From Chloroflexota bacterium (GTDB taxonomy: Bacteria; Chloroflexota; Dehalococcoidia; Dehalococcoidales; UBA2162), in the NCBI GenBank assembly GCA_016199495.1, contig JACQGQ010000090.1, positions 1-41,244 of the forward strand: 41,244 nucleotides of DNA, in the 5' to 3' direction. Position numbers and translations under genes: made by a program. Shown here piece after piece: positions 311-28,722 of the stretch (positions are counted from its first letter, which is position 1; every line of letters begins with the position of its first letter). The notes under the pieces are model-generated. The model worked only from the letters and a program-made list of their open reading frames with translations, did no database searches and was not told the origin of the DNA.

Positions 311-352
311 TCTGGATATATCAAGCGGAGGGCACTTACTGAGGATATTCAA

Positions 353-679
353 ATGAAGGAGATAATTGCCATTATCAGGCCGGAGAAGCATCTCCCGACC
401 ATCGAGGCCGTGATGGAGCTTGGAATAGAAGAGATTATGCAGCAGCGGGTGCTGGGACGAGGACAGCAAGCTGGGCTGCGTTACCTGAGACCGGTAGCAG
501 GACAGCAGTCCGAGGCTATTGTCCAGTTCTTACCTAAGCGGATGCTCACCTGGCTCGTCCCGGAAGAAAAAGTGGCTACTTTAGTAGAGGCTATCATTCG
601 TACTAACGGTACTTCCTCTTATGGCGACGGCAAAATTTTCGTTTGCCAACTGGACGGTGTAGATGGAAATGTGGAATAA
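353..679 (+). CDS. PII-family nitrogen regulatory protein, NifI2-like
   Basis: Small PII-family signal protein of 108 residues, a normal length. It opens with the family start MKEIIAIIRPEK, contains VLGRGQQAGL before the T-loop, FLPKRMLTWLVP after it, and ends with GDGKIFVC. The FLPKRML stretch is characteristic of NifI2, which with NifI1 inhibits nitrogenase in methanogens and some bacteria by sensing 2-oxoglutarate. Here the neighbour is a nitrite reductase, not nitrogenase, and the reading frames overlap by 17 bases, so tight co-expression is expected. A GAGGA ribosome site precedes the ATG. A NifI1-like partner lies just after the reductase. A role in controlling the reductase or its transporter is inference. 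Confidence 0.85.
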   Translation: MKEIIAIIRPEKHLPTIEAVMELGIEEIMQQRVLGRGQQAGLRYLRPVAGQQSEAIVQFLPKRMLTWLVPEEKVATLVEAIIRTNGTSSYGDGKIFVCQLDGVDGNVE

Positions 680-2249
680 CCCGATTGAAACATATAAGAA
701 AGAAAAAGACGGGCTGGACATTATCCAGGACATCGGGGAACTGGCGGTGCATCATGGCGGCTGGGAAACCCTTGACCCGGGTGATAGGGAGAGGCTCAAG
801 TGGATAGGCACATTCTTCTGTGAACCTACCCCGGGACAATTCATGATGCGTATCCGTATCACTAATGGCCAGGCCTCGGCAGCCCAACTCCACCTGCTCG
901 CCGCCCTATCCCGCCAGCTCGGCAATGGCATATTGGACATTACCACCCGCCAGCAGATAGAGTTACGCGCTGTTAAGATGCGGGGCGTATCTGAGATATT
1001 GGAGGCACTGCGAGAAGTCAATCTGACCAGTCTGCAGACTGGTCAGGACAATGTGAGAAATATTATCTGTTGCCCTTTGGCAGGCCTTTCCGACAAGGAG
1101 TTATTTGACGCCTCACCGGTAGGCGCCGAATTCACGCGTATCTTCCTTGGTAACAGAGCCTTCTCAAACTTGCCCCGTAAGTTTAACGTGGCCATTACCG
1201 GCTGCACCGAGAACTGTATCCATGCGGAGACTCAAGACTTGGCCATGACGCCGGCGCTAAGAGAAACCGATGGCACTCCGGGATTCAATGTGGCGGTGGG
1301 AGGCAAGATGGGTTCCGGCGGAATGAAAATAGCGCAATCGCTGGATGTTTTTGTGGAGCCCCAAGAAGCCGCCCGACTGGCTACCGAGGTGGTCGCACTC
1401 TTCCGTGATGAAGGTTTTCGCGACCAGCGCACACGGAGCCGTCTGTTCTTTCTCATCGAAGAATGGGGAATCGAGCGCTTTAGAGATGTTTTACAAGAAC
1501 GTTACGGTCGGGTTTTCGAAAAGGCTCAGCGAGACACCCGATTCCCGGGCAGAGCAGACCATCTGGGCATTCACCCCCAGAAGCAATCCGGAATGGTCTC
1601 CGTAGGCCTTTGCGTTCCAGCCGGACGTCTCTCCTGCAAACAAGTTGATGAACTGGCATATCTGGCGGAAGGCTATAGCAGCGGTCACCTGAGACTTACC
1701 ACCGACCAGAACGTGATACTGGTCAACGTGCCGGAAGTAAGACTTTCCTGGCTTCTCTCCGAACCCATCCTCCACCACTTCTCCCCTAACCCGCATCCCT
1801 TTCTGAGAGGACTGGTCACCTGCACGGGTACAGATTACTGCAAGCTGGCGCAAATCGAAACTAAAGACATCGGCCTGCGTTTGGCCGAGGAAATGTCCAG
1901 GCGGTTTCCCCTCGCTCCACCAGTTACCATGCACTGGTCAGGGTGCTCTGCGGGTTGCGGTAATCACCAGGCGGCCGATATTGGTTTCCAGGGCGTAAAA
2001 ACCCGGCTAAACGAAGAGGTTACGGAAGCAGTCAGCATCTTCGTCGGAGGCCGGAGCGGTATTGACCCTAAACCCGGTGAACGAATTGTGGAACTCTTGC
2101 CGGTGTCCCAGCTAAACGAAGTTGTTCCCTCGGTTCTGGAGAACCTGGATGTCTTGTATCGGGTCAGACGGCCACGTGTCGGAGAAAAGCGTGTCTTAAT
2201 GGTCCCCGTGTTTTCGGCGTCGATCCGCACTGAGGACTCAATAAATTGA
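663..2249 (+). CDS. nirA: ferredoxin-type nitrite (or sulfite) reductase, siroheme [4Fe-4S] enzyme
   Basis: Full-length 528-residue NirA/SiR-family enzyme that would reduce nitrite to ammonium (six electrons) in the cytoplasm. It shows the duplicated ferredoxin-like half-domains (about 55-120 and 310-375) and two catalytic halves. The siroheme/[4Fe-4S] ligands are visible as C387-x5-C393 and C428-x3-C432, followed by the GNHQAADIGFQG-type motif. The first half has RKFNVAITGCTENCIHAET near 172-190. The TTDQNVILVNVP stretch and the nitrogen-regulator neighbours favour nitrite over sulfite, but the sequence alone does not exclude sulfite reductase. The gene overlaps the PII gene before it (17 bases) and the PII gene after it (4 bases), and a GlnR-like box precedes the unit. 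Confidence 0.88.
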   Translation: MEMWNNPIETYKKEKDGLDIIQDIGELAVHHGGWETLDPGDRERLKWIGTFFCEPTPGQFMMRIRITNGQASAAQLHLLAALSRQLGNGILDITTRQQIELRAVKMRGVSEILEALREVNLTSLQTGQDNVRNIICCPLAGLSDKELFDASPVGAEFTRIFLGNRAFSNLPRKFNVAITGCTENCIHAETQDLAMTPALRETDGTPGFNVAVGGKMGSGGMKIAQSLDVFVEPQEAARLATEVVALFRDEGFRDQRTRSRLFFLIEEWGIERFRDVLQERYGRVFEKAQRDTRFPGRADHLGIHPQKQSGMVSVGLCVPAGRLSCKQVDELAYLAEGYSSGHLRLTTDQNVILVNVPEVRLSWLLSEPILHHFSPNPHPFLRGLVTCTGTDYCKLAQIETKDIGLRLAEEMSRRFPLAPPVTMHWSGCSAGCGNHQAADIGFQGVKTRLNEEVTEAVSIFVGGRSGIDPKPGERIVELLPVSQLNEVVPSVLENLDVLYRVRRPRVGEKRVLMVPVFSASIRTEDSIN

Positions 2250-2563
2250 AAATGATTCGAGCCATAATCAGACCGGAGAAAGAGTCGGTGGTTACTACTG
2301 CCCTGGCGAAGGTCGGCTTCCCAGCTTTAACCAAGTGGGAAGTGATAGGGCGCGGCAAACAGCAGGGTATTCAATTGGGAAACCAGGTCTACGAAGGACT
2401 CGCCAAGTGCCTCTTAATGGTAGTCGTCCATGATGACAGGATGGAGGAAGCTATGCGGACTATTGAAAAATCCGCTTTCAGCGGCAATCCCGGAGACGGC
2501 AAGATATTTGTGACACAGGTTGAGAAAGTTTACACAGTACGTACCGGAAAGGCGGAGCTTTAG
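2246..2563 (+). CDS. PII-family nitrogen regulatory protein, NifI1-like
   Basis: PII protein of 105 residues. Starting at TTG 2246 gives MKMIRAIIRPEK, the usual NifI1 opening, and places a GAGGA ribosome site nine bases upstream; ATG 2252 is the alternative. VIGRGKQQG precedes the T-loop, and NPGDGKIFV with VYTVRTGKAEL closes the protein, again like NifI1. It overlaps the end of nirA by four bases, indicating translational coupling. With the NifI2-like gene at 353 it forms a split pair around the reductase, which is unusual because NifI1 and NifI2 normally lie side by side between nifH and nifD. No nitrogenase gene is visible in the window. Confidence 0.85.
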   Translation: MKMIRAIIRPEKESVVTTALAKVGFPALTKWEVIGRGKQQGIQLGNQVYEGLAKCLLMVVVHDDRMEEAMRTIEKSAFSGNPGDGKIFVTQVEKVYTVRTGKAEL

Positions 2564-4856: not shown

Positions 4857-7592
4857 CTATGTTAGTTCATTGATAAGCCCTGAAATATCACCGACGCTAC
4901 ATCGGCTGAAGTGTACCCTAATCACGCGCTGCCCCCGAGATTGCAATGCTTGGAAATCACCCATAGCCTGCGCATCGGCTACTACTCCGAAGGTATAAGG
5001 CTTTCCGGGTATGAGAATGTCCTCTTCATGGCCAGCAGTAATCTGGAGAAATAAGCCAGTCTTGGGCCCGCCTTTATGCAACTGCCCGGTAGAATGCAAA
5101 AAACGGGGGCCATACCCCAGTGTAGTAGCAATGCAATAACGCTCCATTACTTTTCGGCGGAGTTCGCCGAAAGCCTGATCCCTCTCAGAGGACTGGCAGA
5201 CGTAGGCCATAATGCTAAGATATCTGCCTTCTTGTGCCTCAGCGAGCAGCTCTTTTATAGACCCAGTGGTCTCCATCTGCGGGTGCTGTCCTGAGGACAA
5301 GTACTCCTGTAATATGCGCTGAGTGGCGTCCTTTGCACTCTGGACGTCGGGCTGATTGAAGGGATGAATGCCCAGAACCGCACCAGCCACCGCTGTGGCG
5401 AACTCCCAGCGGAAGAACTCGCCGCCCAGGTCATACTTATCCCGCATCTCCAAAGTTATCACCGGTTGCCCCGAGGATTTTAGCTTTTCGACGGCTTTAT
5501 CTGCATCCGAGTTATCATCTTCCTTAAGGCGCAGGTAGATGAATAATCGGTCGCTGCCGTAACAGGACGAGTCCAGCAGAGGCTCACCCACTATGGGTAT
5601 AATACCCTTCCCCTCTTTGCCGGTACTCTCAGCTAGGAGCTGCTCCACCCAGATCCCGAAGCTGGCGACGGCCGATGACGTGATGAGGGTCAGCTTGTCC
5701 CGTCCCTTGAGAGCCATAGCGCCGATGCACGCTCCCAGCCAAGCAGCATCGTTATCGTGAACGGGCACACAGGACAAGGTGCTCTCTTTCATGCAATCCG
5801 CCCGGTCCAGCAGAGCGGCAATGTCAGCCCCTATGGCCGCTGCTGGTACCATGCCAAATCCAGATAAGACAGAGTAACGGCCGCCGATGTCAGGGGGATT
5901 GAGGAACAGGTTGCCAAAACCGGCTTTCTCCGCCAGGACGGCAAGAGGTGACCCGGGGTCAGTAATGGCAACGAAGTTCTCTCCCACCTTATCTTTGCTT
6001 AGTGCCGACTCCACCAGGTTCCTGAAGAAATCAAAAATAGACAGAGGTTCTATGGTGGTACCTGACTTGGAGGAAAGGATGAGCAGAGTATCCAGGGGTT
6101 CGATGGCATCCGTTACCTCACCTATCCGGACCGGAACGATGCAGGACCCAGCTTCCAGTACCGTAAGCTTGGGGAACCCGGGAGCGCTGCCCAGAGTCTG
6201 GCTCAGCACCTCGGGGCCAAGGCTGCTCCCGCCCATGCCCAGCAGCAGCACATTTTGGAAACCAGCTTCCCTTACCTCTTTAGCAAAGAGCTGCAAAGAA
6301 GGCACCATCTCCTGCATCTGGTCTATAACCGTAAGCCACCCCAGGCGGTCGGTTATCTCTGCGGGGTCATCCTTCCAGACAGTATGGTCCTTTCCCCATA
6401 TCCTCTTCACCACCTCCCGGCGGGAAAGTTCCTCCAGCGCAGCTTCCACATCAGAAATATACTCCCCGATGTCAACACCAGGATGGATATGCTCCTTTGT
6501 CAGGAGCCGCCTTTTCTTTTCCTCTATGCCCGCTAGAAGCTTGTCAAAGGAATCGGCAAAGGCTTTGACGCCGTCCCTTTGCAACTGCTCTGTGATGTCA
6601 TCCAGATTCACTCCAAGCCCCTTCAGGCTAGATAGAACTTCCTCTGCCTCCTCCAGTCCTTCGTCCAGAGTCCGGCGTACCCGGCCGTGGTCAAGAAAGG
6701 CTTCCAGAGTCTCTAATGGCAGGGTATTGACGGTATCCGGCCCGATAAGTTCGTCCACATAGAGGACATCAGAGTAGGCTGGATTCTTGGTGCCGGTGCT
6801 GCCCCAAAGGACGCGCTGGACTCGGGCGCCACGCTGTCGCTGAGCAGCGAATTCCTCGCCGTGAAATAACCGACTGAAGCGACGATAGACGAGTTTGGAA
6901 TTGGCAATAGCAACCTTTCCCCGCAGGGCTAAGGCCTCTTCTGTGCCGATTTTTTCCAGCTCCCTGTCCACGTAGGTGTCAACCCGGCTGACGAAGAAGG
7001 AAGCTACCGAAGCCACCCCCTGTGGATTTGAACTCCGCCTTATGCCCCGGATATAAGCTTGGGCAACATCCTCATAATGCTTCAGGGAAAACATCAGGGT
7101 TACATTAATGTTAAGCCCTTCGGCAATCAATTTCTCTACGGCAGGTATACCCTCTGGAGTGGCCGAGATTTTTATCATTACATTGGGACGGTCGACCAGC
7201 TGCCACAGGCGCCTCGCCTCGGCAATAGTGCCCTCGGTGTCATAGGAAAGCTGCGCCGGCGGCTCCAGACTGACCAGTCCATCAGCGCCATCAGCCTGCT
7301 CATAAAGAGGGCGCAATACGTCCGTTGCCAACCGGATATCTTTTACCACCAGGCGGTCATAGAGAGTTCTGGTATCAATATCAGGGTCAGAGTTAAGAAT
7401 ATCCCGTATGGCTTCATCGTAATCAGCGCCCGAAGTTATTGCTTTATGAAAGATGGTGGGATTACTGGTCATGCCGCAGACTCCTTCTTCGACCAGTTTC
7501 TTGAGTTGACCACTGGCAATCAGTCCCCGGCTAATGAAATCAAGCCATATCGATTGTCTCAGACGTCGGGCTTCCTGGATACGGTTTGTCAT
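4857..7592 (-). CDS. tal-pgi: bifunctional transaldolase / glucose-6-phosphate isomerase
   Basis: A 911-residue fusion of two sugar-phosphate enzymes. Residues about 1-370 are transaldolase: SIWLDFISR, MTSNPTIFHKA and the Schiff-base lysine in NVMIKISATPEGI. Residues about 430-911 are phosphoglucose isomerase: LLGMGGSSLGPEVL, the phosphate-binding SSKSGTTIEPLS and a C-terminal segment with LGYGPRFLHSTGQLHKGGP. Fused Tal-Pgi proteins are known in several phyla, including Chloroflexota and cyanobacteria. The gene overlaps rpiB by four bases (ATGA), so the two are translationally coupled. It links fructose 6-phosphate, erythrose 4-phosphate and glucose 6-phosphate interconversion. No internal stop or frameshift is visible. 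Confidence 0.95.
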   Translation of the reverse strand: MTNRIQEARRLRQSIWLDFISRGLIASGQLKKLVEEGVCGMTSNPTIFHKAITSGADYDEAIRDILNSDPDIDTRTLYDRLVVKDIRLATDVLRPLYEQADGADGLVSLEPPAQLSYDTEGTIAEARRLWQLVDRPNVMIKISATPEGIPAVEKLIAEGLNINVTLMFSLKHYEDVAQAYIRGIRRSSNPQGVASVASFFVSRVDTYVDRELEKIGTEEALALRGKVAIANSKLVYRRFSRLFHGEEFAAQRQRGARVQRVLWGSTGTKNPAYSDVLYVDELIGPDTVNTLPLETLEAFLDHGRVRRTLDEGLEEAEEVLSSLKGLGVNLDDITEQLQRDGVKAFADSFDKLLAGIEEKKRRLLTKEHIHPGVDIGEYISDVEAALEELSRREVVKRIWGKDHTVWKDDPAEITDRLGWLTVIDQMQEMVPSLQLFAKEVREAGFQNVLLLGMGGSSLGPEVLSQTLGSAPGFPKLTVLEAGSCIVPVRIGEVTDAIEPLDTLLILSSKSGTTIEPLSIFDFFRNLVESALSKDKVGENFVAITDPGSPLAVLAEKAGFGNLFLNPPDIGGRYSVLSGFGMVPAAAIGADIAALLDRADCMKESTLSCVPVHDNDAAWLGACIGAMALKGRDKLTLITSSAVASFGIWVEQLLAESTGKEGKGIIPIVGEPLLDSSCYGSDRLFIYLRLKEDDNSDADKAVEKLKSSGQPVITLEMRDKYDLGGEFFRWEFATAVAGAVLGIHPFNQPDVQSAKDATQRILQEYLSSGQHPQMETTGSIKELLAEAQEGRYLSIMAYVCQSSERDQAFGELRRKVMERYCIATTLGYGPRFLHSTGQLHKGGPKTGLFLQITAGHEEDILIPGKPYTFGVVADAQAMGDFQALQSRGQRVIRVHFSRCSVGDISGLINELT

Positions 7593-10279: not shown

Positions 10280-11377
10280 CTAATCGAAATGGTAGGCATT
10301 CCGAGCATATTGGGCAACCATGCGTGTGACATTGAAGAAAGAGCCATTCACGGCTATGGTCGAGCGCATAATTGTAGCATAGGCATCAGGTTTCTTGTAA
10401 AAGAGAGGCAGAACTACATTTTCCAACTTTTCATAAAGAGAAACGGCTTCCACCGTAGTATTGCTCTCGCCCTGCCAATCCTCACCAATTGACCAGCCAG
10501 TTACACCTTCAAGGTGTCCCTCAATCCACCATCCGTCGAGCACACTAAGGCTAGGCACCCCATTTAGTGCTGCCTTCATACCGCTTGTTCCGGAGGCCTT
10601 CTGGGGCTTCTGGGGTGTATTCAGCCAGAGGTCAACGCCGGCACAGAGGTACTTAGCCACGGCTATATCGTATTCCTCGAGATATACTGTCGGGATCGTG
10701 TCCGCTACGGGGGTGGCCGCTTCAAAGACGCGGCGGATGAGGGTCTTTCCACCTTCATCTTGAGGATGAGCTTTTCCCCCATAGATTAACTGCAGAGGGC
10801 CAATTTCGCGTGCTATCCTTTTAAGACGCACCAAGTCAGATAGTAACAGGTCCGCTCTTTTGTACGGTGTAGCGCGGCGGGCGAATCCAATGGTCATCAC
10901 ATCGGGAGACAAACGGACGCCAGTCCGCCGCTCTACCTCAGTCAACAATTCTTTCTTTGCCTCAGCATGGGCCCGCCGAATTTCATCCAGTGGGATGCTT
11001 ATCGCATACCGCTGGTAGAGGTTGTCCCGATACCATTCAGGAAGGTATTTATCATAGAGCCGATGGAAAGGCGCTGATGTCCAGGTGGTCGCATGCACAC
11101 CGTTGGTAATGGAGTTGATGGGATAGCTAGGAAACATGGTCTGAGAAATTTCCTCATGGCGCATGGAGACTCCGTTGATGTAACGGGAAAAGAAGAGCGC
11201 CGTGTGCGTCATATTGAGAACTCCCGGCGTACAGCATCTGATGGCTTCAACGGCAGCAGTATATTCTTCTCCTAGGACCTGCCGCACAAGTTCCAGGGGG
11301 AACTGGTCGTGTCCGGCCGGCACAGGCGTGTGTGTGGTGAACACGCATTGGTGGCGAACGGCTTCCCTATCCGAGTT
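10280..11377 (-). pseudogene. glgP: alpha-glucan (glycogen/maltodextrin) phosphorylase, C-terminal part only
   Basis: The minus-strand frame encodes the C-terminal half of a phosphorylase: EAVRHQCVFTTHTPVPAGHD, SITNGVHATTW, TIGFARRATPYKRADLL, IYGGKAHPQDEGGK, and the pyridoxal-phosphate region NTPQKPQKASGTSGMKAALNG. The bacterial form is about 700-850 residues; here the first 400 or so are absent. Similarity stops at about 11375, exactly where the serine recombinase similarity starts on the other strand. The open frame continues to 11407 through foreign sequence, with no credible start. So this is a 5'-truncated remnant at a rearrangement or assembly junction, and it cannot make an active enzyme as it stands. 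Confidence 0.88.
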
Positions 11378-12812
11378 TGTCAGCGGCAGAAGTGTGGAAA
11401 AACGCACTCAATTCCAGCAGATCATTGAGGATGCCCGATTGGACAGGTTTGACGTGCTACTGGTTGACCATACTTCACGTTTTGGCCGCAATCAGGCGGA
11501 ATGTATCAGGTACAAAGAAGAACTAAAGCTTTTAGGTAAAACTGTAGTCTTCGTAAGCCAGGGGATTATCTCAGGCAGTGACCGCGATTTTCTTTCTGAA
11601 CGGATCAATGAGACCATGGATGAAGGCTATAGCCGCAATCTATCTCGATATATAACAGAAGGACTGGTACGCAAAGCGGAAAGCGGGTTACATGTTGGTC
11701 CGTCCCCATTGGGTTTTAAGAGCGAGTTAAAAGCAGGTACACGTGAGCATAAAGTGCCGGATCCTGCCACGATACCGATCTTATTCATGGCATTGAAAGA
11801 ATATGCTACCGGAGATTATTCCTATAGAGAGGTGGCAAATCATCTAAATGCCGATGGTTACAGAACACAAAACGGCAGATTCTTTACCGGATACAATCTC
11901 CGGGATATTCTTAGTAATCGGTTTTACGAAGGCAAAGTAGTCTATCACCAAGGGCTTCCTGATGAACAGATAATCAATGGTTCCCATAAGGTGCCCGAAG
12001 ATGTCCATCAGTTATGGCTGCGGTGTCAGATAATCAAAAAGGAACGAACCAATCAGACCACAGGCCGTCCGCGAAGGGAAAATCATGACTACCCTTTCTC
12101 TCATGTTTTGAAATGTCATCATTGCGGCAATTCCTACCATGGCGAGGCTGTGTATTACAAAGATACCACAAAATTACGATTAATTCATGAGCGCCACTCA
12201 CATGGGAAACAGTGCAATATAATGCCGAAGTCACGGTCTGTAGATTCCTTGAACCGAGAATTTGCGGAACGAGTTCTGGCATATGTTAATCTGGATAAAG
12301 GGTGGAAGACCAGGGTTATGGCAGTTATCTTGAATGGTGGTGTCACTGAGAACAAAGCTAATCAGGATCAAGCCAACAGGTTAAGCAAAGTTCTGGAAAA
12401 TTTACGTAAACAGCATTTATGGGGTGATATTTCCGACGGTGACTACAGGCGCGAAAAGGCCGACCTGGAACGTCAGATCAAGACTCTTACTCCTGATACT
12501 ACGCCTATCGAAATGCCTAACATGGAGAGAGCCGCCCAATTACTAAATGAAATGCCAGCTCTTTGGCAACATCCTGGAGTGACGAACAAGCAAAGAGAGT
12601 CTTTGGTGCAAGAAGTTTTTAACAAAATAAGCATCGACGGAGATGCTCTGGTTACTGTTGAACCAAAGCCGGAATACGCTCCCTTGTTTGCAGAAATGCT
12701 GACGCACACCTTAAATGGTTATCGTGAGTTCGATTCTCCCCCGCCTCCACCAAACCCAACACACGTCCTGAGGAATCCAGGGCGTTTTCGTTTTCCTGGG
12801 GGTCAAAGATAA
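11376..12812 (+). pseudogene. large serine recombinase, N-terminally truncated
   Basis: Recognisable recombinase sequence begins at FVSGRSVEKRTQFQQIIEDA and continues through FDVLLVDHTSRFGRNQAE, the recombinase domain around GLHVGPSPLGFKS and LNADGYRTQNGRFFTGYNLRDIL, a zinc beta-ribbon (CHHC, then a later H and C) and a coiled-coil segment near 12360-12490. The usual first 40 or so residues with the catalytic serine are missing. The frame stays open back to 11202, but that part is only the antisense of the phosphorylase gene. Such enzymes integrate genomic islands and phages. In Dehalococcoides, serine recombinases are linked to islands at the tmRNA gene. This copy is probably inactive unless the junction is an assembly error. 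Confidence 0.82.
12726..12752 (+). other. tmRNA/tRNA 3'-end-like sequence, candidate attachment site
   Basis: Inside the 3' end of the recombinase frame lies a T-loop TTCGATT at 12729-12735 with the partial stem GTGAG/CTCCC, then CGCCTCCACCA ending at 12752. This is what the last bases of a tmRNA or tRNA with encoded CCA look like, with one extra C in the acceptor arm. No tRNA body precedes it. Islands that integrate at ssrA duplicate its 3' end, so this could be the distal att copy of an island whose recombinase reads across it. It is also within a Pro-rich codon run, so chance similarity is possible. Confidence 0.45.
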
Positions 12813-22470: not shown

Positions 22471-23232
22471 ATGGCAAAAAGCGGGGGTAATTCAGTAGTC
22501 AAGATTAATGCCAGCGGCGTTTTTTATCGGGAGCTGAATGCTAGACTGAGAGATATCGCTTCCAATGACGCTCAGAGGGTTGAGCTTCACAATGTCTGCG
22601 GTCAGCGATATATCGGTACTGACCTGGACAAGCCGATAGAAATTGAGATTTTCGGCACTCCGGGTAATGACCTGGGAGCCTTCATGGACGGCTCGAGAGT
22701 TATTGTCCACGGTAATGCTCAGGATGGCTGCGGTAATACCATGAATGAGGGGGAGATAATTGTTCACGGCCATGCCGGGGATATTATTGGTTTGTCAGCC
22801 CGGGGAGGTAAAATCTTCATCCGTGATGATGTCGGCTACCGGGCCGGCATCCATATGAAGGAGTACGGAGACAAGAAACCGGTGCTGGTTATCGGCGGCA
22901 CGGCCCAGGATTTTCTCGGGGAATATATGGCCGGTGGTATCCTGATTCTGCTGGGTTTGAATCTCAGCGCAGGCGAACATCACCAAGCGAAATATATCGG
23001 CACCGGCATGCACGGCGGTGTCATTTACTTGAGGGGAAGTGTCGAGGATTATCAATTAGGTCAGGAAGTAGGTATCGCTGACCTGGAAGAGAAGGACTAT
23101 CAGATTGTTCGGAAACTGGTTGGTGAATTCGCTGCTCACTTTGACTACGAACCGGCAACGATTTTAGAGGGCAAGTTTATCAAGCTCTACCCCCGCTGGC
23201 TGCGACCTTATGGGAGATTATATGCCTATTGA
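22471..23232 (+). CDS. glutamate synthase GXGXG-domain subunit
   Basis: A 253-residue right-handed beta-helix domain matching the C-terminal alpha-subunit region of glutamate synthase. The repeated glycine pattern is clear: VHGNAQDGCGNTMNEGEIIVHGHAGDIIG, then ARGGKIFIRDDVGYRAGIHM, and YMAGGILILLGLN. It is structural, bridging the glutaminase and FMN parts. The gene follows its partner with only one base between stop and start. It is the last synthase gene; the regulator at 23313 is 80 bases on. Confidence 0.92.
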   Translation: MAKSGGNSVVKINASGVFYRELNARLRDIASNDAQRVELHNVCGQRYIGTDLDKPIEIEIFGTPGNDLGAFMDGSRVIVHGNAQDGCGNTMNEGEIIVHGHAGDIIGLSARGGKIFIRDDVGYRAGIHMKEYGDKKPVLVIGGTAQDFLGEYMAGGILILLGLNLSAGEHHQAKYIGTGMHGGVIYLRGSVEDYQLGQEVGIADLEEKDYQIVRKLVGEFAAHFDYEPATILEGKFIKLYPRWLRPYGRLYAY

Positions 23233-23312
23233 GCGGGGGAGGAGGGGTATAGGCTAAGTGGTGTCAGCGACTTTGAGGAGCTAAGAAGCTTCTGGGGTTT
23301 ACGAATAATTAG

Positions 23313-23999
23313 GTGGACAGAGCCTTGTTCAATATATTCGTAATAGCTAAGGAAGACAAGACAATAACAGAACTGCGTTCGGAGCTTATTCAAAACGGCT
23401 TTGCCTGCTCGATTGTTTCTGACGAAAACGAGGCAATTGAGGAGATTGCCGAGCACTCCCCCGATTTAGTGCTGGTGGCAATGGACGGGTACTCGACTAA
23501 TTCCGGAATAAGGGAGTTGTGCCAGAGGATAAAGCTAGCCAGGCAGTTGCCTATTATTGCCCTGGTCGCTAGGGAGGCACTCGACAGCCTTGGTATTGAC
23601 CCGAGTATCGATGATTTTGTTATCAAGCCATATGACGTCAGGGAATTAGTATTAAGAGCAAAACGCCTGCTACCTGGGACCAGTAGTAGTGACAATAGTG
23701 AGCAAATTAGATGCGGCGACCTGGTAATAGACCTGGCTAAATGCGAGGTAAGTTTAGCCGGCGAGGTGGTACTATTGGCCTTTAGAGAGTATGAGTTGCT
23801 CAAGTTCCTGGCGAGTAATGGCGGCCGTGTCTTCACTCGTGAAGCTCTACTCAATAAAGTCTGGGGTTATGATTACTATGGTGGGGATAGGACAGTAGAT
23901 GTCCATATCAGAAGACTGAGGAGTAAGCTGGAGGACGCAACTCATACCTTCATTGAGACGGTAAGGAATATCGGTTATAGGTTCAGGGGAAGCAACTAG
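23313..23999 (+). CDS. atypical OmpR/PhoB-family response regulator, GlnR-like, lacking the phospho-acceptor
   Basis: A 228-residue regulator with a receiver domain (about 5-115) and a C-terminal winged helix (about 135-228; LLAFREYELLKFLASNGGRVFTREALLNKVWG, then DVHIRRLRSKLE and VRNIGYRF). The receiver has lost its phosphorylation site: Ala56 stands where Asp is expected after PDLVLV, the N-terminal acidic pair is replaced by Ala-Lys in VIAKED, and the Thr of the switch is Val; the Lys of VIKPYD remains. No histidine kinase is adjacent. Actinobacterial GlnR is a similar orphan that controls glutamine synthetase, ammonium transport and nitrite reductase. The start could be GTG 23313 or TTG 23325, the latter with AGGTGG eight bases ahead. 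Confidence 0.88.
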   Translation: MDRALFNIFVIAKEDKTITELRSELIQNGFACSIVSDENEAIEEIAEHSPDLVLVAMDGYSTNSGIRELCQRIKLARQLPIIALVAREALDSLGIDPSIDDFVIKPYDVRELVLRAKRLLPGTSSSDNSEQIRCGDLVIDLAKCEVSLAGEVVLLAFREYELLKFLASNGGRVFTREALLNKVWGYDYYGGDRTVDVHIRRLRSKLEDATHTFIETVRNIGYRFRGSN

Positions 24000-24005
24000 C
24001 TTGGT

Positions 24006-24046
24006 GTAACACAGATTTAACCTGGTGGTAATATGTTGGAAACAAT
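24006..24046 (+). promoter_or_regulatory. GlnR-like 11-base-periodic box upstream of the small ORF/amt unit
   Basis: GTAAC at 24006, TTAAC at 24017, GTAAT at 24028 and GAAAC at 24039 are each separated by exactly six bases. This is the closest of the three boxes to the actinobacterial GlnR consensus, since GTnAC- and GAAAC-type elements stand at alternate positions. TTAACC could serve as a -35 with AACAAT (24041-24046) as a weak -10. It lies six bases after the regulator gene's stop codon and 42 bases before the small ORF. Confidence 0.6.
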
Positions 24047-24087
24047 GAAGGGCTAGGATGGATATAAATAGTATCGGAGGTATATTA

Positions 24088-24210
24088 ATGCCAGTAGAAG
24101 CAATCCTAGCCGCCGTATCCTTTATCGGCCTTTTCACCGCCTGGGTAATTATACCCAGCTACTTGCGGAAGCGCCATGTTGCCAGCGAAGAAGACGATAC
24201 CTTCAAATAG
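24088..24210 (+). CDS. 40-residue single-span membrane peptide upstream of amt
   Basis: ATG 24088 follows a strong GGAGG site at a spacing of eight bases. The product starts MPVEAILAAVSFIGLFTAWV, has one hydrophobic helix (about residues 3-24), a basic stretch SYLRKRH that would stay inside, and an acidic tail EEDD. It sits between the GlnR-like box and the ammonium transporter gene and would be the first cistron of that unit. I do not recognise a family. It could be a small accessory subunit or regulator of Amt, or a leader peptide. Confidence 0.65.
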   Translation: MPVEAILAAVSFIGLFTAWVIIPSYLRKRHVASEEDDTFK

Positions 24211-24231
24211 TGGGCAATAACTGAGTTATCT

Positions 24232-24259
24232 CAGCCGAAGCAAGTGATAGTCACGGCTG
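24232..24259 (+). promoter_or_regulatory. stem-loop between the small ORF and amt
   Basis: CAGCCG (24232-24237) pairs with CGGCTG (24254-24259), and inside it GTGA pairs with TCAC around a three-base loop. No uridine run follows, so it is not a plain terminator. It may protect or separate the amt message from the small ORF message. Confidence 0.35.
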
Positions 24260-24302
24260 CAGTCTGGCTAGATTTAATTAGATTTAAAAGGAGCTTTTGG
24301 TT

Positions 24303-25760
24303 ATGCAACATCGTCAATTATCGGGCGTCAAGGAGTCGCCCGAACCTATTTTGTTACGAACGCCGCTACTCAAGCGGCGTTGGTTTATTGCCCTGACCCT
24401 GCTGGTCATTCTGGGCGTAGCCTTCTTTGGTGTGCCAGCCATCGTGCATGCCGCCGACCCTACTGGTGGGGACACGCTGCAGGATAATCCTGATGCTGCA
24501 GTTAATATGGCCTGGACATTAGTAGCCGGTTTCTTGGTCTGGTTCATGCAACTCGGTTTTGCCTTTCTGGGAGGTGGTCTAATTCGCTCCAAGAACCAGA
24601 CTAACTACTGGACGAAGAGCTTTATGGACTTCTGTATCGCCTCGCTCGGTTTCTGGGCTTTCGGTTTTGCCCTGATGTTCGGCGGCTCAAAACTGTTTCC
24701 CGGTCTGGAGGCTGGTAATGCTCTTATCGGCTATTCCGGCTTCTTCCTGAGCGGCGCCAGCTACGATGTCTCCACTATAATGATGTGGTTCTTCCAGATG
24801 GTCTTTGCCGCCACTGCCTGTACCATTGTGGCTGGCGCTGTGGCTGAGAGGATGAAGATAACCGCCTATCTGGCTTACAGCTTTATCATTGGTGCCTTAA
24901 TCTACCCCATTTATGGCAAATGGGTCTGGGGGGGAGGCTGGCTGAGCACACTGAACATTCTTGGTACTACTGGCGTCCGAGATTTCGCTGGCTCTGGTGT
25001 CGTCCACATGGTCGGTGGACTGGCCGCTCTGGTCGGTGCCGCCATGGTTGGCGCCAGGATTGGCAAATTTAATAGGGATGGCACTCCAAACGCAATCAGG
25101 GGTCATAACCTGCCTTTTGTCGTTATCGGCACCTTTATTCTCTTCTTCGGCTGGTTCGGCTTCAACGCTGGTAGTACCCTGGCGGCGACCGATTTGCGTA
25201 TCTCGGTTATTGTCGTCAATACCTTCCTGGCGGGGGTTACCGGAGCGGTGGTCGCTCTCTACTGGGTACTTGCCCGTACGGGAAAGGCTGATATTATTGC
25301 TGCCTGTAATGGCTGTCTGGCCGGGTTGGTGGCGATTACCGCGCCTTGCGCTTTCGTCGCTCCCTGGGCGGCGGTAGTCATCGGCGCTATCGCTGCTCCA
25401 GTAATGATGGCTACGGCCTGGTTTGTGGAGCGGAAGCTCAAAGTGGATGATGCGGTTGGGGCCGTCGCGGTTCATCTCGGTGGCGGTATTTGGGGGCTTT
25501 TGGCGGTGGGCATCTTCGCTGATGGCACTTACCTTGGTGTCAAGGGTCTAATCGTCGGTGAGGTAGGACAGCTTATCCTCCAGATTATTGATATCGCTGT
25601 AGTACTGGTCTGGGTTTCGGTTACTGCTTTCCTCACCTTTTACCTCGTTAAGAAGACAATCGGTCTACGTGCCAGCCGTGAAGAGGAGCTACAGGGTCTG
25701 GATATTCCCGAGCACGGCATAGAGGCTTATCCGGCTGATTCCGTTCCGGCTTCAAACTAA
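24303..25760 (+). CDS. amt: ammonium transporter, Amt/MEP family, with signal peptide
   Basis: A 485-residue channel for ammonium uptake. Residues about 1-50 look like a basic leader and signal peptide (KRRWFIALTLLVILGVAFFG ending in VHAAD). The Amt core follows from AVNMAWTLVAGFLVWFMQLGFAFL with eleven predicted helices, DFAGSGVVHMVGGLAALVGA with the first pore His, FGWFGFNAGS and VAVHLGGGIWGLLAVG with the second. ATG 24303 is nine bases after AAAAGGAG; the in-frame TTG 24297 is too close to that site. No PII gene is adjacent, unlike the common glnK-amtB pair; PII genes are at 353 and 2246. Control by the GlnR-like box is likely. Confidence 0.94.
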   Translation: MQHRQLSGVKESPEPILLRTPLLKRRWFIALTLLVILGVAFFGVPAIVHAADPTGGDTLQDNPDAAVNMAWTLVAGFLVWFMQLGFAFLGGGLIRSKNQTNYWTKSFMDFCIASLGFWAFGFALMFGGSKLFPGLEAGNALIGYSGFFLSGASYDVSTIMMWFFQMVFAATACTIVAGAVAERMKITAYLAYSFIIGALIYPIYGKWVWGGGWLSTLNILGTTGVRDFAGSGVVHMVGGLAALVGAAMVGARIGKFNRDGTPNAIRGHNLPFVVIGTFILFFGWFGFNAGSTLAATDLRISVIVVNTFLAGVTGAVVALYWVLARTGKADIIAACNGCLAGLVAITAPCAFVAPWAAVVIGAIAAPVMMATAWFVERKLKVDDAVGAVAVHLGGGIWGLLAVGIFADGTYLGVKGLIVGEVGQLILQIIDIAVVLVWVSVTAFLTFYLVKKTIGLRASREEELQGLDIPEHGIEAYPADSVPASN

Positions 25761-25858
25761 TCGTTGAAATATCATTTGCTCTAAAACCGGCGGGAAGGCG
25801 AAAAAGCAATCTAAAAAAAGGGAAACGAAAATAAGAGTAAGGAGAAATTAAAAGTAAT

Positions 25859-27292
25859 ATGAAGCCCGAAGAAGTTTTGAAGTTTGTTAAAGATAACGAT
25901 ATTAAAATCGTGGACCTTAAGTTCAATGACCTGCCGGGACTGTGGCAACACTTCTCCATACCCGCTACGGAACTCGCTGACATCGATGACCCGACGCGAG
26001 GTATATGGGTAGACGGCATCGGTTTTGATGGCTCCAGTATCCGTGGTTTCAAGAAAATCCAGGAAAGTGACATGATACTTGTGCCCGACCCGGCAACAGC
26101 GGTCATTGACCCCATCTGCCAGGTTCCTACCTTGAGTATAATCTGTGATGTCTACGACCCGCTGACCAAGGAGCCCTACTCGCGCGACCCCAGATACATT
26201 GCCAAAAAGGCAGAGAAACATTTGAAATCAACGAGGCTTGCTGATGTTAGCTATTGGGGTCCGGAAATGGAATTCTTTATTTTCGATAATGTCCGATTTG
26301 AACAGAACCAGCGCTCCGGTTTTTATTATATTGACTCCAATGAGGCTGACTGGAACACAGGCAGAGAAGAGAATCCCAACCTGGGCTATAAGGTAAGATT
26401 CAAGGAAGGCTATTTTCCGGTACCACCTCATGATTCTCTCCAGGATATAAGATCAGAGATAATCCTGACCATGATTAAAACTGGCATCCACATTGAAGTC
26501 CATCACCATGAAGTGGCTACCGCCGGGCAGTGTGAAATCGATATGAGGTTTGATAGCCTGACACGAATGGGTGATAAGATGATGTGGTATAAATACATCG
26601 TCAAAAACATCGCCCGTAAACATAACAAGGTGGCGACCTTCATGCCTAAACCCATCTTTGGCGACAATGGTTCCGGAATGCATGTCCATCAGAGTTTATT
26701 TAAAGGCGACAAAAATGTCTTCTTTGACCCCAAGGGCTACGCTTTAATCAGTCAGACCGCCAAATACTATATTGGCGGCTTGCTGAAACATGCTTACTCT
26801 CTAGCAGCTCTGGTCTCGCCAACCACTAATTCCTACCGACGGCTGGTGCCCGGCTATGAGGCTCCGGTAAATCTCATCTACTCGGCTCGCAACCGCAGCG
26901 CCTGTGTCCGCATTCCAGTTTACACCGATAACCCGCGCACCAAGAGAATTGAATATCGACCGCCTGACAATACTGCCAACGGCTATCTGGCTCTGTCGGC
27001 CATGCTGATGGCCGGGCTTGACGGCATTGAGAAGAAAATCGACCCGGGGGAACCTCTGGATAAGGATTCCTACCATCTCACTCAAGAGGAAGCCGCCAGA
27101 ATACAAACGGTGCCGTCATCACTGGAGGAAGCTTTGCGTGCTCTGGAAGAGGACCATGACTACCTGCTCAAAGGTAATGTCTTTACTCCTGATGTCATTG
27201 AGACCTGGCTCGAGTATAAGAGAAGTCAGGAACTCGATGCCGTAAGGCTCAGACCCCATCCTTACGAGTTCTATCTCTACTTTGACATTTGA
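25859..27292 (+). CDS. glnA: glutamine synthetase type I (477 residues)
   Basis: Makes glutamine from glutamate, ammonia and ATP. The beta-Grasp N-terminus has [14 protein letters not shown] and [18 protein letters not shown]; the catalytic part has [44 protein letters not shown] and the metal ligand region [15 protein letters not shown] Tyr stands in [11 protein letters not shown] at the position of the adenylylated Tyr of GSI-beta, so adenylylation is possible in principle. It follows amt by 98 bases with no clear promoter, suggesting read-through. A second, shorter synthetase follows. The ribosome site GGAG lies 14 bases ahead, rather far. Confidence 0.95.
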
Positions 27293-27316
27293 CGGAAGTA
27301 GAAGCTAGCCAGCCAA

Positions 27317-27345
27317 CTGACTTTGCGCCTGATTTGTGCTATAAT
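27317..27345 (+). promoter_or_regulatory. promoter of the second glutamine synthetase gene
   Basis: CTGACT (27317-27322), 17 bases, then a perfect TATAAT (27340-27345), 33 bases before the start codon. No GlnR-like 11-base series is visible here, so this copy may be under different control. Confidence 0.65.
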
Positions 27346-27378
27346 GACAGCCAGTTATTCTACGGATGAGGAGGATTA

Positions 27379-28722
27379 ATGGCTGTCAAAGGAAAGGCTG
27401 AGTCTCGAGAATATGTCCTCAAGATGGCCAAGGAGCACGATGTCAAATTCATTCGGCTGTGGTTCACCGATATCCTGGGGATGCTGAAGAGCTTTGCCAT
27501 CACTGCCGAAGAGCTGGAGGGAGCCCTGGAGGATGGGATGGGCTTTGATGGCTCCTCAATTGAAGGCTTCGCCCGTATTGACGAAAGTGATATGGTGGCG
27601 ATGCCTGACCCCGATACCTTCCGATTGCTGCCCTGGCGGCCGCGCGAGCATCATGCTGTCGCTCGAATGTTCTGTGATGTCTTGAAACCCGGTGGTGAGC
27701 CTTTCAAGGGTGACCCCAGGTATGTCCTCAAGCAGAACCTGAAACGGGCCGCCGACTTGGGCTACACTTACTATGTGGGACCTGAACTGGAGTACTTTTA
27801 CTTTAAGGATTCCAGCGGCACCGAGGGGCTGGATGTGGGGGGCTATTTTGACATGACTCCACTGGATTTGGCGACCGACCTGAGAAGGGATACCGTTCTT
27901 ACCCTGGAAGAAATGGGCATCCCTGTAGAGTATTCTCACCATGAGGTGGCCGCCAGCCAGCACGAGATAGATATGAGGTACACCGATGCCCTGACCATGG
28001 CTGATAGCGTGATGACCTATCGCCTGGTGGTGAAGCAAATCGCCATGCAGCATGGGGTCTATGCCACCTTTATGCCCAAGCCGGTTTTTGGTATCAATGG
28101 CAGCGGGATGCATGTTCACCAGTCGCTCTTTAGGGGTAACCGGAACGCTTTTTTTGATAAGGACGATGACTATTATCTCTCGAAGACAGCCAAGAGTTAT
28201 ATCGCCGGACTGCTCAAACATGCTCCTGAAATCACGTGCGTCACCAGCCAGTGGGTGAATTCCTACAAACGACTGGTTCCCGGTTACGAAGCACCGGTCT
28301 ATCTCTCCTGGGCGCGACGTAACCGCTCTGACCTGATTCGGGTCCCCGAATACCGACCTGGCAGGGAAAATGCTACCAGAATAGAGTTCAGGTCTCCTGA
28401 CCCGGCCTGTAATCCCTACCTTACCTTCAGTGTTATGCTGGCGGCTGGTCTTGAAGGGATTGAAAAAGGCTACGAGCCACCTGCGCCGGTGGAAGAAAAT
28501 GTTTACGAGATGACCGAGGCTCAGAGAAAGAAAAGGGGAATAAAGACCTTACCCGCCAGTCTCTGGGAGGCTATCCAGCTTACCGAAAAAAGTGAGGTAG
28601 TGCGTAGAGCCCTGGGTGAACATATTTTTAATGCTTTTATTGAGAACAAGAAAATCGAGTGGGACCACTACCGCACTCAAGTGACTGACTACGAGCTTAA
28701 AAGATACTTGCCGATATTGTAA
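27379..28722 (+). CDS. glnA: glutamine synthetase type I (447 residues, GSI-alpha-like)
   Basis: Second synthetase, 447 residues, near the length of the GSI-alpha class. Motifs: [73 protein letters not shown] and EFRSPDPACNPYL. The region ENVYEMTEAQRKKRGI is typical of alpha enzymes, which are usually not adenylylated but feedback-inhibited. AGGAGG lies just ahead of the ATG, and a separate promoter stands at 27317. Two adjacent but different synthetases suggest division between conditions or metabolites. Confidence 0.95.
   Translation: MAVKGKAESREYVLKMAKEHDVKFIRLWFTDILGMLKSFAITAEELEGALEDGMGFDGSSIEGFARIDESDMVAMPDPDTFRLLPWRPREHHAVARMFCDVLKPGGEPFKGDPRYVLKQNLKRAADLGYTYYVGPELEYFYFKDSSGTEGLDVGGYFDMTPLDLATDLRRDTVLTLEEMGIPVEYSHHEVAASQHEIDMRYTDALTMADSVMTYRLVVKQIAMQHGVYATFMPKPVFGINGSGMHVHQSLFRGNRNAFFDKDDDYYLSKTAKSYIAGLLKHAPEITCVTSQWVNSYKRLVPGYEAPVYLSWARRNRSDLIRVPEYRPGRENATRIEFRSPDPACNPYLTFSVMLAAGLEGIEKGYEPPAPVEENVYEMTEAQRKKRGIKTLPASLWEAIQLTEKSEVVRRALGEHIFNAFIENKKIEWDHYRTQVTDYELKRYLPIL

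Follow-up and report, generated by a model that had tools for sequence, protein, structure and literature searches.

A ferredoxin-nitrite reductase gene (nirA) is bracketed by two PII genes, a NifI2-like gene upstream (I2) and a NifI1-like gene downstream (I1), in 17 species of Dehalococcoidia/SAR202. We propose that assimilatory nitrite reduction is now under the control of this NifI1,2-type PII pair, re-used to act directly at NirA, and we would give this reading a probability of about 0.55. NifI1 and NifI2 are described as a nitrogenase-specific PII pair that switches nitrogenase on and off, with the nif gene order nifH-nifI1-nifI2-nifD in methanogens, Dehalococcoidia and Nitratidesulfovibrio. 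The nifI1 and nifI2 genes have been stated to be always inside the nitrogenase operon (PMC8395244).

The window, meaning the whole 41,244-nt stretch of DNA that was analysed, is an entire contig and leaves 352 nt readable upstream of I2. The triad and the sequence directly preceding it were mapped as follows:

340..352, + strand: AGGA-type ribosome-binding sequence directly 5' of I2, reading CTGAGGATATTCAAATG
353..679, + strand: I2, NifI2-like PII protein of 108 aa (Pfam P-II), first gene of the operon
663..2249, + strand: NirA, ferredoxin-nitrite reductase (sirohaem/4Fe-4S) of 528 aa (Pfam NIR_SIR)
2246..2563, + strand: I1, NifI1-like PII protein of 105 aa (Pfam P-II), TTG start

According to the ORF coordinates, I2 and NirA overlap by 17 nt and NirA and I1 by 4 nt. 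The preliminary description, in which the PII pair was split around nirA with overlapping frames on both sides, was exact in its coordinates. A similar ribosome-binding sequence lies 5' of I2 in locus L043, the closest relative of the window. Just past I1, at 2601-2771, there is a 56-aa ORF with a hydrophobic stretch and no Pfam match, which is a possible extra member of the operon. Elsewhere in the window, a serine-recombinase-like ORF (11202-12812, + strand) runs into a glycogen-phosphorylase-like ORF (10280-11407, - strand) at the latter's end, which suggests that a mobile element was inserted there.

The 17 species, which were gathered from a contig scan, a survey of the class and extended loci, span at least nine families, and the same triad is present in the window genome's own family (G011) and in another genome of the same order (G014). 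Eight of them have the bare triad. Scanning genome contigs with a two-row NirA alignment gave 11 Chloroflexota loci; NirA is preceded by I2 and followed by I1 in every one, and most have two additional genes between I2 and NirA. When 393 species of the class were surveyed, NirA was found at E<=1e-60 in 44 genomes; the top-scoring NirA (895-989 bits) occurred in 11 genomes, which were exactly those with the I1/I2 bracket, and a PII gene within 1.5 kb was found at none of the 19 inspected lower-scoring, out-of-clade NirA loci. The bracketed NirA proteins formed one clade in the tree, and the pairwise distances of I1, I2 and NirA were correlated (Mantel r 0.76-0.82, p 0.0001). The genes flanking the module mostly differ between loci. 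Between the window and L043, dN/dS was 0.18 for I2, 0.16 for NirA and 0.20 for I1, i.e., all three genes are under purifying selection. The exclusivity of the bracket, the correlated distances, the differing flanks and the low dN/dS together supported that the three genes are maintained and inherited as a unit. With the same arrangement in 17 species and a significant distance correlation, the bracket is not a chance association, and the order noticed in the window proved to be a conserved one.

Two genomes, G263 and G222, carry a second NirA. That of G263, considered as a counter-example, turned out to be an I2-NirA copy in which NirA is interrupted by an IS3-type transposase gene (L174:5242-6675); near that of G222 there is no PII gene. 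The NirA search of viral contigs gave no matches, and the survey outside Chloroflexota consisted of one pattern scan and a plasmid collection.

The best PDB matches of NirA were plant nitrite reductases (435 bits, vs. 127 bits or less for ferredoxin sulfite reductase). Residues R63, R132, K173-x-N175 and C387/C393/C428/C432, which make up the NiR-type active site and the C-x5-C / C-x3-C cluster ligands, were all invariant. A sulfite reductase was ruled out by these active-site residues and the structure scores. NirA scored 508 bits against NCBIfam PRK09566, under the cut-off of 594, but its active site is kept, which is compatible with a divergent relative of ferredoxin-nitrite reductase. The CxxxC motif in the N-terminal half of NirA was discarded as a mark of the module, being present in all NirA of the class that were compared. 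The NirA of G178, a bare-triad genome, has one in-frame TGA (L110 / G178:C52:22503-24047), which may reflect a pseudogene, a sequencing error or recoding.

The kinship of the two PII proteins was investigated in trees whose references were the NifI pairs of seven Chloroflexota nif operons (nifH-I1-I2 order confirmed at each), one Nitratidesulfovibrio nif operon, the 9p1x chains and 22 GlnB/GlnK proteins (115 columns). The best solved relatives of I2 and I1 were 9p1x_G (E 3.6e-17) and 9p1x_H (E 3.2e-27), respectively, two different PII chains of one entry, which their lengths and places in the tree led us to treat as NifI2 and NifI1. All 17 NirA-linked I1 proteins were nested in the NifI1 clade (100/99), with NifI1 proteins from other Chloroflexota as their nearest neighbours (92/79 in one tree, 90/82 in another), and uniting I1 with GlnB/GlnK was rejected (AU p 0.0036). 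By its sequence, I1 is a member of the NifI1 clade, and the earlier assignment of the third gene as NifI1-like, not an ordinary GlnK, was supported. The 17 NirA-linked I2 proteins formed their own clade (100/98), and a 97/92 branch (115 columns) set them together with NifI2 apart from GlnB/GlnK and I1. In addition, an I2 alignment profile scored NifI2 (9p1x_G) 30 bits above any other PII in the PDB. Uniting I2 with GlnB/GlnK was not rejected (AU p 0.11), and the single-chain I2 model, of moderate quality (pLDDT 72, T-loop unresolved), resembled PII folds at large and did not discriminate between NifI2 and GlnK. I2 most likely groups with NifI2, this being the weaker of the two placements: the earlier NifI2-like label for the first gene agrees with the branch and the best profile match, while the AU test does not by itself reject GlnK.

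Q39 and K58 of PII proteins position Mg-ATP and 2-oxoglutarate. In I1, both residues and the GDG C-loop are invariant (17/17), so that 2-oxoglutarate sensing by I1 appears plausible. Y51 is absent from I1 (17/17). I1 also has an invariant W31 (17/17), a position occupied by M, I, L or V in nif-linked NifI1. Every I2 keeps K58 and GDG, and 15 of the 17 keep Q39, the other two having E. The C-terminal arginines R101/R103 coordinate nucleotide in PII (PMC8395244). R101 is missing from all 17 I2 proteins and R103 from 16, whereas both are present in the eight nif-linked NifI2 compared (8/8). Given this loss and the two Q39-to-E replacements, the response to nucleotide and 2-oxoglutarate may differ from that of NifI1,2, and 2-oxoglutarate sensing may be altered in I2.

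The preliminary description had seen no nif gene around the triad. In agreement with this, a nif operon was not found in the window's genome either (81% complete): no nifDK-family gene was detected and the PF00142 matches were weak (28-30 bits). More generally, nifDK or intact nifH was found in none of 11 out of the 12 module genomes searched. The sole exception, G178, has NifH-like and nitrogenase-like proteins that are distant (44-46% to NifH), and the four PII genes of this genome are on contigs other than those that carry them. As the 12 genomes are 81-96% complete, the absence of nifDK is strong, not absolute.

A trace of nif was present in L043. There, positions 5457-5615 hold an internally deleted nifH, in which NifH residues 1-42 are joined to the last nine, with its own start and ribosome-binding sequence and ending ~75 nt before I2. 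Over the 42 aa it is 93-95% identical to Dehalococcoidales NifH. This relic, which is absent from the window, shows that the L043 locus was at one point connected with a nif operon. Its nearest match is Dehalococcoidales NifH, whereas I1 is closest to NifI1 proteins from other Chloroflexota, so the relic does not necessarily go back to the time when the pair arose.

The conserved order and the presence of a NarK-family transporter and a molybdoenzyme in nine of the operons make control of nitrite reduction or nitrite entry by the pair a well-motivated proposal. As the sole enzyme common to all 17 clusters, NirA would be the most economical target; that the minimal unit in 17/17 is I2-NirA-I1, the other two genes being missing in eight, likewise counts for NirA. 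In some species the true target could instead be NarK, the molybdoenzyme or the ammonium transporter Amt, which is a neighbour in L043. Under direct control of NirA, I1 and I2 would be produced together with NirA from a single operon and would presumably form a mixed PII oligomer, as in nitrogenase regulation. We infer that at low 2-oxoglutarate, a nitrogen-replete state, the T-loops would bind NirA, most simply by docking over its ferredoxin electron-delivery site, and nitrite reduction would stop. High 2-oxoglutarate with Mg-ATP would free NirA. NifI1,2 blocks the NifH (electron-donor) site on NifDK, with reversal by 2-oxoglutarate, Mg and ATP (PMC9765008), and NirP1 binds cyanobacterial ferredoxin-nitrite reductase and was modelled to compete with ferredoxin (PMC10907346). 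In view of these two precedents, blocked electron delivery to NirA would be the best explanation.

The pair could instead block the entry of nitrate/nitrite through NarK, with NirA merely sharing the operon. GlnK blocks AmtB by direct binding. In nine species (L044, L045, L046, L047, L050, L051, L052, L053 and L095), a 215-aa SUOX-type molybdoenzyme (MoOx, PF00174) and NarK are found between I2 and NirA, MoOx sitting between I2 and NarK, so NarK is inside the bracket in 9/17 species. PII was also seen to interact with NrtC/NrtD in Synechocystis (PMC6603209). However, the bracket around NirA is kept in the eight clusters that have no NarK, including the window, and in the five of 12 module genomes where no NarK was found anywhere at E<=1e-20, and we regard control at NarK as unlikely. 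MoOx is conserved, with an invariant Cys in PLVCQIFNW, and may be an assimilatory nitrate reductase, from a family unusual for this role. Its location inside the bracket in nine species, and the many partners known for PII proteins, would be compatible with a pair that controls MoOx, transcription or another partner, not NirA. As MoOx is missing from eight clusters and L116 has a MoOx-NirA pair without PII, we find such a target improbable. It could also be argued that the pair is the leftover of a decayed nif operon, flanking nirA by accident and with no present role, as the deleted nifH directly upstream of I2 in L043 would suggest. Against this stand the same order in 17 species and at least nine families, in mostly different neighbourhoods, the dN/dS of 0.16-0.20 with the correlated distances, and the discordance between a Dehalococcoidales-like relic and an I1 nearer to other Chloroflexota; we consider this reading very improbable.

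In the window organism, the pair might serve as the general PII, acting on Amt and glutamine synthetase, with its position at nirA only coupling its expression to nitrite use. The relevant genes of the window are:

23313..23999, + strand: response regulator of the OmpR type, lying 5' of Amt and glnA
24297..25760, + strand: Amt ammonium transporter (PF00909, 413 bits), the only Amt found in the window genome

These belong to a row of genes at 22471-28722, consisting of a glutamate-synthase-like domain protein, the OmpR-type regulator, Amt and two glutamine synthetases, with no GlnK. No GlnK was found beside this Amt and no PII matches elsewhere in the contig. Amt is a possible alternative target of the pair. 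The sole further P-II match in the window genome was a weak PII-like protein (28.8 bits) in another operon (L058:4508-6275, G000:C24), which adjoins two related membrane proteins. An OmpR-type regulator is likewise upstream of I2 in L043, L044 and L045, the L045 protein having a PF00486 winged-helix. In L043, Amt (L043:8266-9777) is directly downstream of I1, so that the PII pair, nirA and Amt are in one cluster. The missing GlnK, the weak second PII match and the L043 cluster all favour a general role. On the other hand, the window genome is 81% complete, and 11 of the 12 module genomes, the L043 genome among them, have at least one PII besides I1/I2, mostly beside Amt; I1 and I2 are thus usually additional to GlnK and not the general PII. 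When compared with GlnK, I1 was outside the GlnB/GlnK clade and placed with NifI, as I2 most likely is, both have no Tyr51, and 22 kb separate them from the Amt gene in the window. A general PII function in this organism therefore seems to us quite unlikely, and direct control of NirA remains our preferred reading.

The preliminary description had presented such a re-use as one not known to be described. No report of a NifI-nirA link was found in the open-access literature searched. Bracketing nirA in a conserved, co-inherited module of mostly non-diazotrophs, the pair would show that a NifI-type regulator can change targets. The module is also relevant to how SAR202 and other uncultured Dehalococcoidia obtain and use nitrogen, and the three co-encoded proteins would offer a small soluble system for testing direct PII control of nitrite assimilation.

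The pair resembles nif NifI1/NifI2 in that I1 belongs to the NifI1 clade, I2 is most likely a NifI2, the PII core and most ligand residues are kept, and both probably act as a pair. Unlike nif NifI1/NifI2, I1 and I2 are separated by nirA, I2 comes before I1, there is no nif operon, I1 has the invariant W31 and I2 has lost the C-terminal R101/R103. The cyanobacterial NirP1 parallels our proposal as a small protein with direct binding to ferredoxin-nitrite reductase, whose ferredoxin site it was modelled to cover; NirP1 is controlled through NtcA and inorganic carbon supply and was not presented as a PII protein (PMC10907346), whereas I1 and I2 are PII proteins. GlnK-AmtB and the cyanobacterial PII-NrtC/NrtD also have PII controlling nitrogen entry by direct binding, but their targets are membrane transporters and GlnK belongs to a different clade.

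A further comparison is provided by an Enterococcus raffinosus plasmid (NZ_CP081847.1; L186:3501-4193, L187), where a PII pair heads an operon whose other genes encode an ABC transporter, urea carboxylase and allophanate hydrolase. Its first PII falls in the NifI1 clade, and the second is long-branched and of uncertain placement. It is tempting, though somewhat short of even odds, to view NifI1,2-type pairs as a portable 2-oxoglutarate-responsive off-switch that moved out of the nitrogenase operon and became attached to other nitrogen-acquiring enzymes, here to NirA through blocked donor docking and perhaps separately to the Enterococcus urea carboxylase. The plasmid pair is like the module in combining a NifI1-clade protein with a second PII on a non-nif nitrogen-acquisition operon, and differs in that the substrate is urea, not nitrite, and the PII genes are adjacent, not split; if confirmed, it would add a second case in which a pair of this kind serves outside nif.
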